Virus record (IMG/VR): IMGVR_UViG_3300031857_001382
Span: 1-23,916 of that record
Direction: 5' to 3' (one strand)
Length of the DNA stretch: 23,916 nucleotides
DNA from: a virus
Positions within the stretch are counted from its first letter, which is position 1; every line of letters begins with the position of its first letter. A program made the translations under genes and the position numbers. This document shows, in pieces, positions 2,484 to 10,331 of this stretch. The notes beneath the pieces were generated by a model. The model had not been told where the DNA came from, did not search any database, and worked only from the letters and a program-made list of their open reading frames with translations.

Positions 2484-3770
2484 TTAATAACCTGAAATAA
2501 CGTCTAAGACTTCGTAGTCATCATCTTCGTAGTCTGTGTTGTAGCTTGTGATAGCTAACTGGTCAATGTAACTTAAAGCATCTACCAAGTCATCATGTAC
2601 ACCAGCTGTGGGGAACATCACTAATTGATCTCTGAACTCACTCCAGTCTTCTTTCTCATTGAAGGATACCCTTCCATGTTCCATACGACCTTGTAAGCTC
2701 CAGACAACCCTGTCAGTCTTCTTCTTGTTACCGTGAGTTAAGTCCTGTATGTGAGCATAGATGTTATTCTTCCTCATCAAGTCATTAAGGTATGGCAGTA
2801 CAGCATTCTTTAATGCTCCTCGCTCAATACCAATGCTTGTAGGCTGGAAGTCTCTAACCACCTTCAAGATGTTAACTGCAGTCTCTCTAATGTCCCACCT
2901 ACCATGCTGTATCTTGTGAACCCACCAGTCACCATTGTCCTCAAGCTTAACTACAGCAATGGCTGTCTCATCTAGTCTCTTCTTAGATGCACCTGCATTC
3001 TTACCAACTTCTTCAAAGCCAGCTAAGTCAATCGCTACAATGTATGTACCAAACTGAGGTTCTTCAGCAGTCTTGAACCATTCCTCTTTAAAGACATCTG
3101 CACCTGCAGTATCAAAGCTAGACAAGTATTCCTGCTTGAATGCAAATGAACTCAGTGTTCTCTTTGCAGCCTCAACTTCCTTAGGATCAATAGTCTCATT
3201 GTCAGCTGTTGTGAAGTGCCATGACTTCCACTCTTCGTCAATCTGGTCAGCCTTGTCTTCAAAGCTACCTAGCTTAAAGATGTCATAGAACCAATTACGA
3301 CCTGATGGTGTTGAGATGAATAAAGCTCTACCCTTCTTGTCTGACAGTGAAGCCCTGATAATCTTCTGCCATGTATCTTCTTTAACGAAAGCACACTCAT
3401 CAAGTACTACAAAGGTCAATGAGACACCTCGGAGACTATCTGGGTTATCTGCACCTCGTACCAGTATCTTCCTACCATTAATCAGTGTTATCTCTAGATT
3501 ATTGATGTGACTTGCTTTAATGACTGGTCTACCCAGCTCATGCAGTAAGTCCCACATAATCGTTCTAGCTTGTCCTAGGGTAGGTGCTATGTACATCACA
3601 GCTGAGCCTTCAGGACAGTTTAAACCCTCAATCAATAACGATATAGCTGACAGCCTTGACTTACCACAACGCCTACCTGCTGCAACTACTTTAAACCTTG
3701 TAGTATCTTTAAAGACACTCTGCTGCCATTTAAGCAGTTGGAAGTTAAGTTCAGCACTGCGTTCAGACAT
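2484..3770 (-). CDS. terL: Terminase large subunit (DNA-packaging ATPase/nuclease)
   Basis: A 428-residue protein with the two-domain terminase plan. The N-terminal ATPase has a Walker A motif GRRCGKS (about residues 32-38) and a Walker B motif VVLDE (acidic pair about 124-125), followed by a FISTPSG coupling-type motif. The C-terminal RNase H-like nuclease starts at YIVAIDLAG (Asp about 248), continues with a SIGIERGA segment and ends with acidic HDDLVDALSY. The length is at the shorter end of phage large terminases. It packages DNA into the prohead through the portal encoded nearby. Its start overlaps the end of the upstream small-terminase candidate by 8 nt. Confidence 0.93.
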   Translation of the reverse strand: MSERSAELNFQLLKWQQSVFKDTTRFKVVAAGRRCGKSRLSAISLLIEGLNCPEGSAVMYIAPTLGQARTIMWDLLHELGRPVIKASHINNLEITLINGRKILVRGADNPDSLRGVSLTFVVLDECAFVKEDTWQKIIRASLSDKKGRALFISTPSGRNWFYDIFKLGSFEDKADQIDEEWKSWHFTTADNETIDPKEVEAAKRTLSSFAFKQEYLSSFDTAGADVFKEEWFKTAEEPQFGTYIVAIDLAGFEEVGKNAGASKKRLDETAIAVVKLEDNGDWWVHKIQHGRWDIRETAVNILKVVRDFQPTSIGIERGALKNAVLPYLNDLMRKNNIYAHIQDLTHGNKKKTDRVVWSLQGRMEHGRVSFNEKEDWSEFRDQLVMFPTAGVHDDLVDALSYIDQLAITSYNTDYEDDDYEVLDVISGY

Positions 3771-4122
3771 CTATGACCTCACTGTCAGTAGTAGAAACTA
3801 GAGGTGACGTTAAGCCTGTAATGTTAATAGACACTGTTGGTGTATTGTTACCAGCCTTCTGTGCCTCAAAGACACTTACAGGGACAATCCTATCAACAAT
3901 TAACTTCCAAGCTGCTGCTTGATTCTTATGTTCATCATTCAATGCTGCATCATAAATAGCTTCTAGAACCTTAGCACTCTTAGGTGAGTTAAGCATTCTA
4001 AGCTTATATTCATTGATGATAGCTGCATCACCTTTAGGTCTACCTACACTACGGTTCTCAGTTATGGACTTAAGTTCCTTAGTTGAGGTACGACCTCTCT
4101 TATTACCTGTTGGTCTAGTCAT
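3763..4122 (-). CDS. Putative terminase small subunit / DNA-binding packaging protein
   Basis: This 119-residue protein has a basic N-terminus (MTRPTGNKRGRTSTKEL, then a GRPKGDAA AT-hook-like stretch) and a helical centre with LNSPKSAKVLEAIYDAALND and AAAWKLIVDRIVPVS. The C-terminus is a Thr/Ser-rich tail. It lies immediately upstream of the large terminase with overlapping ends, the usual place for the small subunit that recognises DNA and regulates packaging. The call rests on position and DNA-binding character. It is the first gene of the leftward block and follows the strong minus-strand promoter at 4369-4397. Confidence 0.65.
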   Translation of the reverse strand: MTRPTGNKRGRTSTKELKSITENRSVGRPKGDAAIINEYKLRMLNSPKSAKVLEAIYDAALNDEHKNQAAAWKLIVDRIVPVSVFEAQKAGNNTPTVSINITGLTSPLVSTTDSEVIDV

Positions 4123-4168: not shown

Positions 4169-4283
4169 GAGTACTAAGACATTATATTTAAGTTATATAG
4201 ACATATAAACATTATAAGTAATTAATATTAATTTACTTAGTAAGTTATTACTTAAATTAATCTAAGTGTGTTTTAACTACTAT

Positions 4284-4717: not shown

Positions 4718-4733
4718 TACTGTGTAGGTACAC

Positions 4734-4789
4734 TGTCGGAAACTTGACAGTTACAGTGTCGGAATATTGACAGTGTCGGGAAGTTGACA
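4734..4789 (+). repeat. Iteron-like array I: three TGTCGGRANNTTGACA units
   Basis: Three 16-bp units occur at 4734-4749, 4757-4772 and 4774-4789: TGTCGGAAACTTGACA, TGTCGGAATATTGACA and TGTCGGGAAGTTGACA. Each begins TGTC and ends GACA, so each is also a dyad suited to a dimeric protein. Starts are 23 and 17 bp apart. Each unit contains TTGACA, but no acceptable -10 box follows at the right distance, so I read them as protein-binding sites and not as promoters. Confidence 0.65.
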
Positions 4790-4831
4790 CGTGAGGGACG
4801 ATGTAGCACCCTCTGAAGTACTACCCAGTAT

Positions 4832-4899
4832 CACCAACATGGTGCATTTAAGGGTGTCAGTGCATCAATATAGTGCACATTATCACCAATACAGTGCAC
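4832..4899 (+). repeat. Iteron-like array II: three CAYCAAYAYRGTGCAY units
   Basis: Units at 4832-4847 (CACCAACATGGTGCAT), 4863-4878 (CATCAATATAGTGCAC) and 4884-4899 (CACCAATACAGTGCAC). Starts are 31 and 21 bp apart, close to three and two helical turns, so all would face the same side of the DNA. The first contains CACC-N5-GGTG, and the second lies within GTGCA-N9-TGCAC (4860-4878). The array sits between array I and the DnaA boxes. Confidence 0.65.
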
Positions 4900-4901
4900 C
4901 C

Positions 4902-4983
4902 TGTGGATAACTCTGAGAATTGTGGATAACTAAAATGCCTGTGGATAACTTAGAAGCTACACTCTAGAGATGCCTGTGGATAA
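4902..4983 (-). other. Four perfect DnaA boxes (TTATCCACA), origin signature
   Basis: TGTGGATAA, the exact reverse complement of the consensus DnaA box TTATCCACA, occurs at 4902-4910, 4921-4929, 4940-4948 and 4975-4983. All four are in the same orientation, with starts 19, 19 and 35 bp apart. Three are followed by CT, giving TGTGGATAACT. In bacteria and many plasmids DnaA binds such boxes to open the origin and load helicase, or to regulate promoters. The match is direct; use of host DnaA by this phage is inference. Confidence 0.8.
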
Positions 4984-5003
4984 GCTGTTAGTCAGGGGTA
5001 AAC

Positions 5004-5027
5004 TGCAAAGCTGGCACAGTGTTTGCA
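5004..5027 (+). promoter_or_regulatory. Sigma-54 (-24/-12) promoter candidate for the early genes
   Basis: CTGGCACA-GTGT-TTGCA (5011-5027) fits the RpoN consensus YTGGCACG-N4-TTGCW with one deviation. The invariant GG (5013-5014) and GC (5025-5026) are separated by exactly 10 bases. It lies about 50 bp before the first plus-strand gene. The site also overlaps an inverted repeat TGCAAA-N12-TTTGCA (5004-5027), so it may instead be, or also be, an operator. No convincing sigma-70 -10 box sits at the right distance from the TTGCAT. Confidence 0.5.
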
Positions 5028-5075
5028 TGGTGTATTGTGTCTCTCAAGACAGTTAACCATTAAGGAACCACTACT

Positions 5076-5423
5076 ATGAAACATGATGCTATCTTCTTCG
5101 CACACACCACAGGCCGTAACTGGACTAATAAGGACATTGCGAAGTTCCACTACTTCAACCAAGGCCACGGCCTCAACGCTCAGAAAACAGCCAGTGACTT
5201 AGAGATTGACAAGTTAGTAGAAGAAGGCCTGTGCAAGTCAGGTGCGATCATAGCCTACGGAGGCCTCAACTACTTCTACACTGACATTCTCCGTGGTTTA
5301 GCCACCAAGAAGCGTGTCGATGGCATTGAGCTTCGTGTGTGCTTAGAAGGCCTCAAAAGGGACATAGAAAAAGCTCAAGCATTTATCGCTGAAATTCGCA
5401 GCACTCAAAAGGAGACAGTATGA
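5076..5423 (+). CDS. Hypothetical early protein (115 aa)
   Basis: First gene of the rightward block, starting 49 bp after the sigma-54-like site and preceded by TAAGGAACCACTACT. The protein is soluble and mixed in charge. The N-terminal half is rich in aromatic residues (FFAHTTGRNWTNKDIAKFHYFNQG); an acidic helix (ASDLEIDKLVEEGL) and a C-terminal helix (CLEGLKRDIEKAQAFIAEI) follow. The GLCKSGAIIAYGGLNYFYTD segment could be a small beta element. I do not recognise a family. Its stop overlaps the next start (ATGA). First position in the block suggests an immediate-early role. Confidence 0.8.
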   Translation: MKHDAIFFAHTTGRNWTNKDIAKFHYFNQGHGLNAQKTASDLEIDKLVEEGLCKSGAIIAYGGLNYFYTDILRGLATKKRVDGIELRVCLEGLKRDIEKAQAFIAEIRSTQKETV

Positions 5424-8334: not shown

Positions 8335-9916
8335 GTCAAAGCTTATCAAGCATATTGCCTGTGATGCCTGTGGTAGCTCAGATGCCAATGGCTTGTATGA
8401 CGATGACCACACCTACTGCTTTTCATGCCACACCTATGCCCATGGACAAGATGTAGCACCTAGAGTGGCTGTGCCACAAAGAAAGACCCAGATGTTAGAC
8501 ATCAAAGGAACCATTAAAGCGATACCTGACAGAGGTATTACCCAGCAAACCTGTGAGAAATATGGAGTTACACAAGAGAATGGACAACACTTTTATCCTT
8601 ACACTGACGATGCCGGAACAACAGTTGCAGCAAAACTTAGAAGAGTGGCAGACAAAACTTTCAGCATTCTTGGAACATTCACGAATGCTAGGCTTTTCGG
8701 ACAGCAGCTCTTTCACGCTGGTGGCAAAGCAGTCACCATCACTGAGGGAGAACTTGACGCTCTAGCAGCTTTTCAGATGAATGGTAGCCTCTACCCTGTG
8801 GTGTCAGTCAGGAACGGTGCACAGGCTGCTTTAAAGGACTGCAAGACACAGTATGAGTGGCTTAACTCCTTTGACAGTATTGTCATCTGCTTTGATGCTG
8901 ATGAGCCGGGTAAGAAAGCTTCTAAAGAGGTAGCTGAACTGTTTGGTCAGAAGGCTAAGATTGTGAAGCATTTGAGTGGCTACAAAGATGCCTGTGACTA
9001 CTTGATTGCAGGTGCTACCAAAGAGTTTGTGAATGAGTGGTGGAGAGCTGAGGTGTACATCCCAGACGGGATTATTAATGCTGCATCACTGTGGGAAGAA
9101 GTGATTAAACCTGAGGCTAAGGCTGAGGCTATGTACCCTTGGAAGGGCTTGAATAAGCTCCTCTATGGTATGCGTCCATCGGAGTTAATCACAGTCACAG
9201 CAGGTAGTGGACTAGGTAAGAGTCAATTTCTGCGAGAGATATTGTTCAATATACTGAACACTACCAAGTGGAATGTTGGAGGGTTATTCCTTGAAGAGTC
9301 CACTCGAAAGACAGCTAGAAGCATTATGTCGTTACACGCTAACAAGCTTCTGCACTTACCTGACACACCAACAACTGAGAAGGAACTTAAAGATGCTTTC
9401 GATGCAACACTTGGTACTAATCGTGTGTATCTCTTTGACCATTTCGGTAGCAGTGACGTTGACAACATTGCCAACAGAATCCGATACATGGCTAAAGCTT
9501 GCGATTGCAGGGTTATCTTTCTTGACCACATCAGTATTGTTATATCTGGTCAAGACAATGGAGATGAGCGTAAGGCTATTGATAACATGATGACGAAGCT
9601 TCGTACACTGGTTCAAGAGCTGGAGATTACCTTGATCTGTGTCAGTCACCTTCGTAGACTGCAAGGGAACCAAGGGCACGAAGATGGAGGCAGTGTGTCA
9701 TTGTCTCAGCTCAGAGGCTCAGGTGCTATTGCTCAGCTGAGTGATGCTGTGATTACCTTGGAGCGTAATAGCATGGCAGCAGATGACAATGAACGTCACA
9801 TGACTAAGGTGGCTGTGGCTAAGAATCGTTACAATGGCTACACAGGCCCAGCTTGTGTGCTGAAGTATGACATGAATACTGGACGTATGGTTGAAGTGCA
9901 AGAGGAGATATTATGA
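8312..9916 (+). CDS. Bifunctional DNA primase-helicase (T7 gp4 type)
   Basis: The 534-residue product unwinds the fork 5' to 3' as a hexamer and primes the lagging strand. The ATG at 8312, after AAGGACAGGG, is preferred over an upstream TTG. Domains in order: a zinc-binding primase domain with C17-x2-C20 and C36-x2-C39; a TOPRIM fold with Glu145 (ITEGELDA) and Asp195/Asp197 (FDADEPG); a RecA-like helicase with Walker A GSGLGKS (298-304), catalytic Glu near 329-330 (GLFLEES) and Walker B VIFLDH (Asp405). The downstream SVSLSQLRGSGAIAQLSD segment is typical of DnaB-family helicases. Length is close to T7 gp4 (566 aa). It works with the polymerase and SSB-like protein encoded downstream. Confidence 0.95.
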   Translation: MKLNLVPESKLIKHIACDACGSSDANGLYDDDHTYCFSCHTYAHGQDVAPRVAVPQRKTQMLDIKGTIKAIPDRGITQQTCEKYGVTQENGQHFYPYTDDAGTTVAAKLRRVADKTFSILGTFTNARLFGQQLFHAGGKAVTITEGELDALAAFQMNGSLYPVVSVRNGAQAALKDCKTQYEWLNSFDSIVICFDADEPGKKASKEVAELFGQKAKIVKHLSGYKDACDYLIAGATKEFVNEWWRAEVYIPDGIINAASLWEEVIKPEAKAEAMYPWKGLNKLLYGMRPSELITVTAGSGLGKSQFLREILFNILNTTKWNVGGLFLEESTRKTARSIMSLHANKLLHLPDTPTTEKELKDAFDATLGTNRVYLFDHFGSSDVDNIANRIRYMAKACDCRVIFLDHISIVISGQDNGDERKAIDNMMTKLRTLVQELEITLICVSHLRRLQGNQGHEDGGSVSLSQLRGSGAIAQLSDAVITLERNSMAADDNERHMTKVAVAKNRYNGYTGPACVLKYDMNTGRMVEVQEEIL

Positions 9917-10059
9917 GTGCATGGTTAATTGCTGTAGTTGGAGTGGTTTACACTATCGTAGCCATTGACTTGATCGTCAAAGGGAATATTGGTCTGGGTA
10001 TAGCCTTTGTAGGTTATGCACTGGGTAACGTGGGGCTGTACATGGAGGCTGCAAAATGA
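9913..10059 (+). CDS. Small two-pass membrane protein (48 aa)
   Basis: ATG overlaps the primase-helicase TGA (ATGA). The 48 residues form two hydrophobic segments, about 3-21 (AWLIAVVGVVYTIVAIDL) and 27-44 (IGLGIAFVGYALGNVGLY), with a short VKGN turn. I recall small membrane proteins of similar form next to replication genes in T7-like phages, without a known function. The stop overlaps the next start. Confidence 0.68.
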   Translation: MSAWLIAVVGVVYTIVAIDLIVKGNIGLGIAFVGYALGNVGLYMEAAK

Positions 10060-10331
10060 GTAAGTGGGTTGAAGGAATGATTGCTAGAGGTGTATCACCT
10101 GAAGTCATTGAACAACGGATTGCACAGAGGAAACGCAATACTCGTGAGTGGGCTGAGAAGAACAGGGAAAGAAAGTATGCACACAAACGAGCATACAAAG
10201 CAAGGCTTAAGAAAGCAAACACTCAGAGTGGTTATGAGGGTGTGATAATTAAGTCAGCTTATCACCCTAACTGGAAAGAAGTTCCTGTGTATCATTGTCC
10301 TGAACTAACGTATAGAGGAAAACATGATTGA
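10056..10331 (+). CDS. Highly basic helical protein (91 aa)
   Basis: ATG overlaps the previous stop. Residues 17-55 are a long helix dense in Arg, Lys and Glu (EVIEQRIAQRKRNTREWAEK, NRERKYAHKRAYKARLKKA), followed by a less charged end (YHPNWKEVPVYHC). The single-helix basic pattern suggests DNA or RNA binding, perhaps in the replisome, since it sits between the primase-helicase and the polymerase. No family recognised. Confidence 0.7.
   Translation: MSKWVEGMIARGVSPEVIEQRIAQRKRNTREWAEKNRERKYAHKRAYKARLKKANTQSGYEGVIIKSAYHPNWKEVPVYHCPELTYRGKHD

Follow-up and report, generated by a model that had tools for sequence, protein, structure and literature searches.

Why should a phage with T7-type replication genes carry a cluster of bacterial DnaA boxes immediately ahead of its early genes? 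A sequence-only reading of this locus had taken the cluster for a DnaA-dependent replication origin on a T7-like phage, and we address in turn what kind of phage carries the boxes, whether DnaA is their probable ligand, what surrounds them, and whether the same arrangement is kept by related phages.

The phage, its intergenic segment and the DnaA boxes

The window, by which we mean the whole stretch of DNA analysed (23,916 bp, positions 1 to 23,916 of the IMG/VR record IMGVR_UViG_3300031857_001382), derives from an uncultured virus and is probably an incomplete piece of a larger genome, since its relatives reach 36-41 kb. It encodes a T7-type primase-helicase, DNA polymerase, exonuclease and endonuclease I, which bears out the gp4-like primase-helicase and gp5-like polymerase named earlier, together with a class II-type ribonucleotide reductase. 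The portal is of the SU10/P22 type rather than the T7 type, and a T7-type single-subunit RNA polymerase was found neither in the window, itself a fragment, nor in 17 larger relatives, in a search that detected the positive controls T7 and Klebsiella phage S16a. Because of the portal and the RNA polymerase result, the designation "T7-like phage" is only half right and applies to the replication genes. Relatives in IMG/VR number in the hundreds, and the closest isolated phages share ~47% of the polymerase. A megablast search of the whole window against phage records returned 0 matches, plasmid records held nothing matching the control region, and no tRNA was found in the window. Searching genome contigs for the polymerase as a route to the host yielded no more than four loci, all of Rhizobiales and with 35-39% identity, and was uninformative; the Fur, NtrC and sigma-54 type sites described below suggest, as sequence motifs, a proteobacterial host.

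The boxes are located in a non-coding segment of 953 bp. On one side of it, terL (2484-3770) and the ORF upstream of terL (3763-4122) run leftward, and on the other the early genes run rightward from 5076, so that the boxes indeed lie to the left of the early genes, as had been stated. The two triplet repeat families reported beside the boxes are likewise present. One comprises three TGTCGGRAANTTGACA palindromes (4734-4749, 4757-4772 and 4774-4789, without strand assignment), a putative operator that recurs in relatives belonging to several cassette types, and the other consists of GCACYA-N3-TRGTGC-like sites beginning at 4831, 4862 and 4883. Single-strand folding of positions 4725-5035 was no better than that of shuffled sequences (z -0.35).

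An exact search recovered all four TTATCCACA boxes in one orientation, on the minus strand (4902-4910, 4921-4929, 4940-4948 and 4975-4983), spanning 82 bp with start spacings of 19, 19 and 35; box 3 is an exact match like the others, box 1 stands in the extended form CTGTGGATAACT, and no further exact copy exists elsewhere in the window. Among 20,000 first-order Markov shuffles of the 953-bp segment, only 4 contained at least two exact boxes. Among 65 homologous regions, 30 contained at least three DnaA boxes per 150 bp, versus a mean of 0.06 in permuted-letter controls; these regions are related, so that counts over them, here and below, are not independent, and the controls are nonetheless far lower. 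Conservation of the boxes and the low control counts together exclude a chance cluster.

The consensus motifs of DnaA, NtrC and sigma-54 are established knowledge, and the degenerate DnaA box reads TTWTNCACA. Among the relatives, the box pattern is TTATNCACA, with variation mainly at position 5. In one group of relatives, termed type B, weak boxes alternate with strong ones at a fixed spacing, and any of the four bases (A, C, G or T) occurs at position 5 of slots B1 and B4, nearly all other positions being fixed; in B4, position 6 can also be C or A. Because position 5 is free in the relatives and the extended motif CCTGTGGATAACTY recurs across phages, the four sites are very probably DnaA boxes. 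An identification drawn from sequence leaves some room for another protein that binds the boxes, or for a fortuitous cluster, but we consider this highly improbable, given that freedom at position 5 and the recurrence of CCTGTGGATAACTY are DnaA features and that chance is excluded as described. In the relatives sampled, neither a DnaA C-terminal domain nor a sigma-54 activator was found above cut-off, and therefore host proteins would have to act on the phage DNA.

NtrC-like sites and a sigma-54 element ahead of the early operon

The second repeat family resembles a nitrogen-regulated enhancer. Its three sites, TCACCAACATGGTGC (4831-4845), GCATCAATATAGTGC (4862-4876) and TCACCAATACAGTGC (4883-4897), all on the plus strand, differ by 1, 1 and 2 mismatches from the NtrC enhancer consensus GCACYA-N3-TRGTGC, and the first of them, one mismatch away from GCACYANNNTRGTGC, has the 14 bp CACCAACATGGTGC in common with the E. 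coli glnA enhancer. The spacings of 31 bp between sites 1 and 2 and of 21 bp between sites 2 and 3 correspond to 3 and 2 helical turns, which places the sites on one face of the helix. Single NtrC matches of such quality are expected by chance within the window; it is the clustering, phasing and conservation of the sites that argue for NtrC. Downstream of the boxes, on the plus strand at 5012-5027, follows a -24/-12 element of the sigma-54 type (TGGCAC-N5-TTGCA), a perfect match and the sole exact one in the window. It is directed towards the early operon, which opens with an ORF (5076-5423, plus strand) for a protein of 115 aa with no assigned function, and transcription would be expected to start at ~5037.

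Sigma-54 elements occur in 20 of the 65 homologous regions (mean of 0.26 in permuted-letter controls) and NtrC-like sites in 12 of the 65 (0.15 in the controls). When examined for the features of a promoter of this kind, the region was found to have a -24/-12 element before a gene and, upstream of it, at least two in-phase and conserved sites of the NtrC consensus. The arrangement is kept as a unit. Twelve phages, which we refer to as type A, have a block of 214 bp that includes the three enhancer positions, the four box positions and the promoter, and that aligns with zero indels, the spacers inside it having 84% majority identity on average. Across 11 distinct type-A blocks, no variation occurs in NtrC site 1 (15/15), in box 1, including its extended form CTGTGGATAACT, or in box 4; box 2 is the one kept least among the relatives. 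The sigma-54 element stands at the same distance from box 4 in these phages as in the window. Scanning IMG/VR for DnaA boxes that have a sigma-54 element downstream of them, across a gap of 13-43 bp, retrieved 53 contigs, and the gap peaked sharply at 28, the window's type, and at 15, the value of a distant group with ~50% identical TerL. More distant relatives (L128, L133 and L139) have NtrC-like sites, DnaA boxes and sigma-54 elements in a different order.

Cassette exchange and the origin question

The position held by the type A block in the window is a slot that is filled differently in other relatives. In type B, it contains a CTTATATAAG palindrome surrounded, at fixed spacing, by approximately six DnaA boxes that face both ways, and in type C (L060, L089, L045, L028 and L096) three CGGCAATATTTGCCG repeats 21 bp apart, followed by a sigma-54 promoter and without boxes. 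Type D (L059, L039, L032 and L146) has TAAGACATAAGA / TTATATAAGACATAAGA repeats, with neither boxes nor a sigma-54 element. Types B and D thus carry DnaA boxes or repeats without any sigma-54 element, and since this holds for the boxes of type B, DnaA boxes do not require such an element. The CTTATATAAG palindrome is common to types B and D, and the CGGCAATATTTGCCG repeats of type C are probably the sites of a different sigma-54 activator. Upstream of the slot, Fur-like boxes or TGTCGG palindromes alternate in the relatives; the Fur pattern is absent from the window itself and present in 16 of the 65 regions, versus 0.00 in permuted-letter controls. Mapped onto a tree of TerL from 61 phages, the type labels require at least 29 changes, compared to a random mean of 37, and between the window (type A) and a type B phage (L083) the reported TerL identity is 100% over 418 columns. 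Because phages with near-identical TerL carry different cassette types, we conclude that the cassettes swap between phages.

This exchange bears directly on the proposal of an origin, according to which host DnaA would bind the array and open nearby DNA, and the phage primase-helicase and polymerase would start replication there. The position of the boxes, at the divergence of transcription and upstream of the replication genes, would suit such a role, repeats beside DnaA boxes occur in plasmid origins too, and the type B cassette, in which approximately six boxes of differing strength and orientation surround CTTATATAAG, is origin-like. However, the box cluster is missing in 30 of the 61 relatives placed in the tree. 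Boxes belonging to an origin would be expected in close relatives, yet the cluster is missing in L045, L028, L039, L032 and L059, which belong to types C and D and have ~90% identical DNA polymerase; in those longer records from such phages that were scanned, it occurs nowhere else either. Computed stability, moreover, gave no unusually unstable DNA up to 250 bp from the arrays; in every type the weakest segment lies ~600-800 bp away, and in the window the intergenic 60-bp segment of lowest stability (4181-4240, without strand assignment) is ~660 bp from the boxes. GC skew changes sign where the early block begins and where it ends, tracking gene strand, and was therefore rejected as independent evidence of an origin. 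Among the origin features tested, the box cluster was found, but an adjacent low-stability element and retention in close relatives were not. What stands of the earlier claim are the DnaA sites, which are very probable and form a fixed-spacing array in many relatives; the origin itself, weakened by the relatives that lack boxes and by the stable DNA next to the array, is unproven, and we regard it as unlikely. The idea is strongest for type B, and no finding demands an origin.

Site arrays in other phages and a proposed early control switch

DnaA-box arrays are not confined to this phage group. Such an array of host-protein sites might stall DNA entry, similarly to the injection stop of phage T5, or might soak up DnaA, sigma-54 polymerase, NtrC or Fur. 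Repeats, inverted repeats and DnaA boxes have been described for the T5 injection stop signal (PMC13250531). In our analysis, this signal (L363; T5 9140-10149, 1.0 kb) contained one strict and two relaxed DnaA boxes, three Fur-like AATGAGAATCATT and five TGTCGGA elements, compared to 0, 0 and 1 for DnaA boxes, AATGAGAATCATT and TGTCGGA in the flanking 4.5 kb, and these element families are the same as in the phage group of the window. In addition, 29 of the 50 contig ends that lie up to 6 kb upstream of TerL (L083-L162) fall within the first 1.25 kb, a clustering in the interval that a physical genome end would give, but that assembly forks at a swapping cassette explain equally well.

Arrays of DnaA boxes also occur in the non-coding DNA of unrelated phages. 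Three direct TGTGGATAA boxes were found in at least 120 contigs, versus 8 for a reversed-letter control, and among the matches listed, 106 of 120 arrays lie outside long ORFs and have CCTGTGGATAACTY in common. In isolated, unrelated phages (Klebsiella S16a, the T7-relative NJ2, Lactococcus P1048, Pseudoalteromonas H101 and a microvirus), non-coding arrays were located at 5948-6106 of L229, 4004-4046 of L230, 2982-3354 of L231, 2863-3029 of L232 and 1469-1550 of L233; no DnaA-box array was present in the first 6.2 kb of T7. In a distant group, stacks of 5-9 sigma-54 elements flank DnaA-box pairs, and one such stack precedes a canonical sigma-70 promoter. In the terL/early intergenic DNA of L388, L395, L371, L381 and L402, 4-9 sigma-54 elements ~26 bp apart surround a DnaA-box pair, and L388 has a canonical sigma-70 promoter ~370 bp downstream of its sigma-54 array. 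As the tandem elements of L388 stand upstream of a sigma-70 promoter, sigma-54 elements need not be promoters. Tandem sigma-54 elements were found in at least 120 IMG/VR contigs (L412-L528), versus 17 for the reversed-letter control, with 78 of 119 among the matches listed lying outside long ORFs, versus 2 of 17 in the control.

The recurrence of arrays in unrelated phages, in T5 and in the groups with tandem sigma-54 elements keeps the entry-stop and titration readings alive. For the window, we nevertheless judge them quite unlikely: its elements are laid out like a regular sigma-54 promoter and its enhancer, an arrangement kept without indels, and a single genome copy has few sites, so that titration would matter only late.

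We instead favour the reading that positions 4734-5037 form a modular region through which host regulators, DnaA among them, control the early genes, and on the strength of the sequence patterns we give it a probability of about one half. Host sigma-54 RNA polymerase would bind the -24/-12 element at 5012-5027, and phosphorylated host NtrC at the three in-phase sites (4831-4897, about -150 to -200) would switch the polymerase on, the early operon starting at ~5037. Host DnaA would occupy the four boxes that separate enhancer from promoter (about -55 to -135) and modulate the complex: it might bend or block the loop, or act as a reporter of the cell's replication state. The sites, their spacing, their conservation and their exchange as a cassette can be read from the sequences; that NtrC, sigma-54 polymerase and DnaA occupy the sites, and which way DnaA acts, we infer. 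The presence of NtrC and sigma-54 in the host is an assumption of the model. More tentatively, and with less confidence than we place in control of this region by host regulators, a virulent lineage may keep a rapidly exchanged early cassette of host-regulator sites (NtrC/sigma-54, DnaA, Fur and others), such that the start of takeover would be gated by host nitrogen, iron and replication state and near-identical relatives would read different signals.

If true, widespread uncultured phages would time their early genes by host nitrogen status, read through sigma-54 and NtrC, and DnaA would supply a second signal. With the wiring exchanged as a cassette, infection success would be tied to nutrient limitation and the cell cycle. 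Such a scheme would also help to explain the recurring non-coding DnaA-box arrays, including the poorly understood T5 injection stop signal. The literature searched, with incomplete coverage, held no precedent for NtrC/sigma-54 together with DnaA at an early phage promoter, and no direct precedent for phage promoters of the NtrC/sigma-54 kind or for DnaA boxes in podoviruses.

Several known systems share part of this architecture. Like oriC and the RK2/P1-type plasmid origins, the region has a DnaA-box cluster beside other repeats; unlike them, it has no adjacent melting-prone DNA, and half of the relatives lack the boxes. The T5 injection stop is likewise non-coding, with DnaA boxes and several repeat families, its Fur-like and TGTCGGA elements being those of the window's relatives, whereas no sigma-54/NtrC promoter is described in T5, the phages are unrelated, and a stop role here would be by analogy only. 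DnaA-regulated bacterial promoters such as nrdAB have upstream DnaA boxes with activator or repressor effects (PMC8203912). The location of boxes upstream of a promoter is common to both, but in the phage setting the promoter is of the sigma-54 type and the boxes lie between enhancer and promoter. In the cyanophages S-PM2d and P-SSM2, gel shift assays placed genes under host PhoBR control (PMC10976474), providing a case of a virulent phage that uses a two-component nutrient regulator of its host; the regulators proposed here would be the nitrogen-type NtrC/sigma-54 rather than a phosphate system, acting at the first early promoter and within an exchangeable cassette. Finally, E. coli glnA p2 resembles the region in its in-phase GCACYA-N3-TRGTGC enhancer sites upstream of TGGCAC-N5-TTGC, with 14 bp identical, and differs in that the phage region would drive early genes and that its enhancer and promoter are separated by four DnaA boxes.
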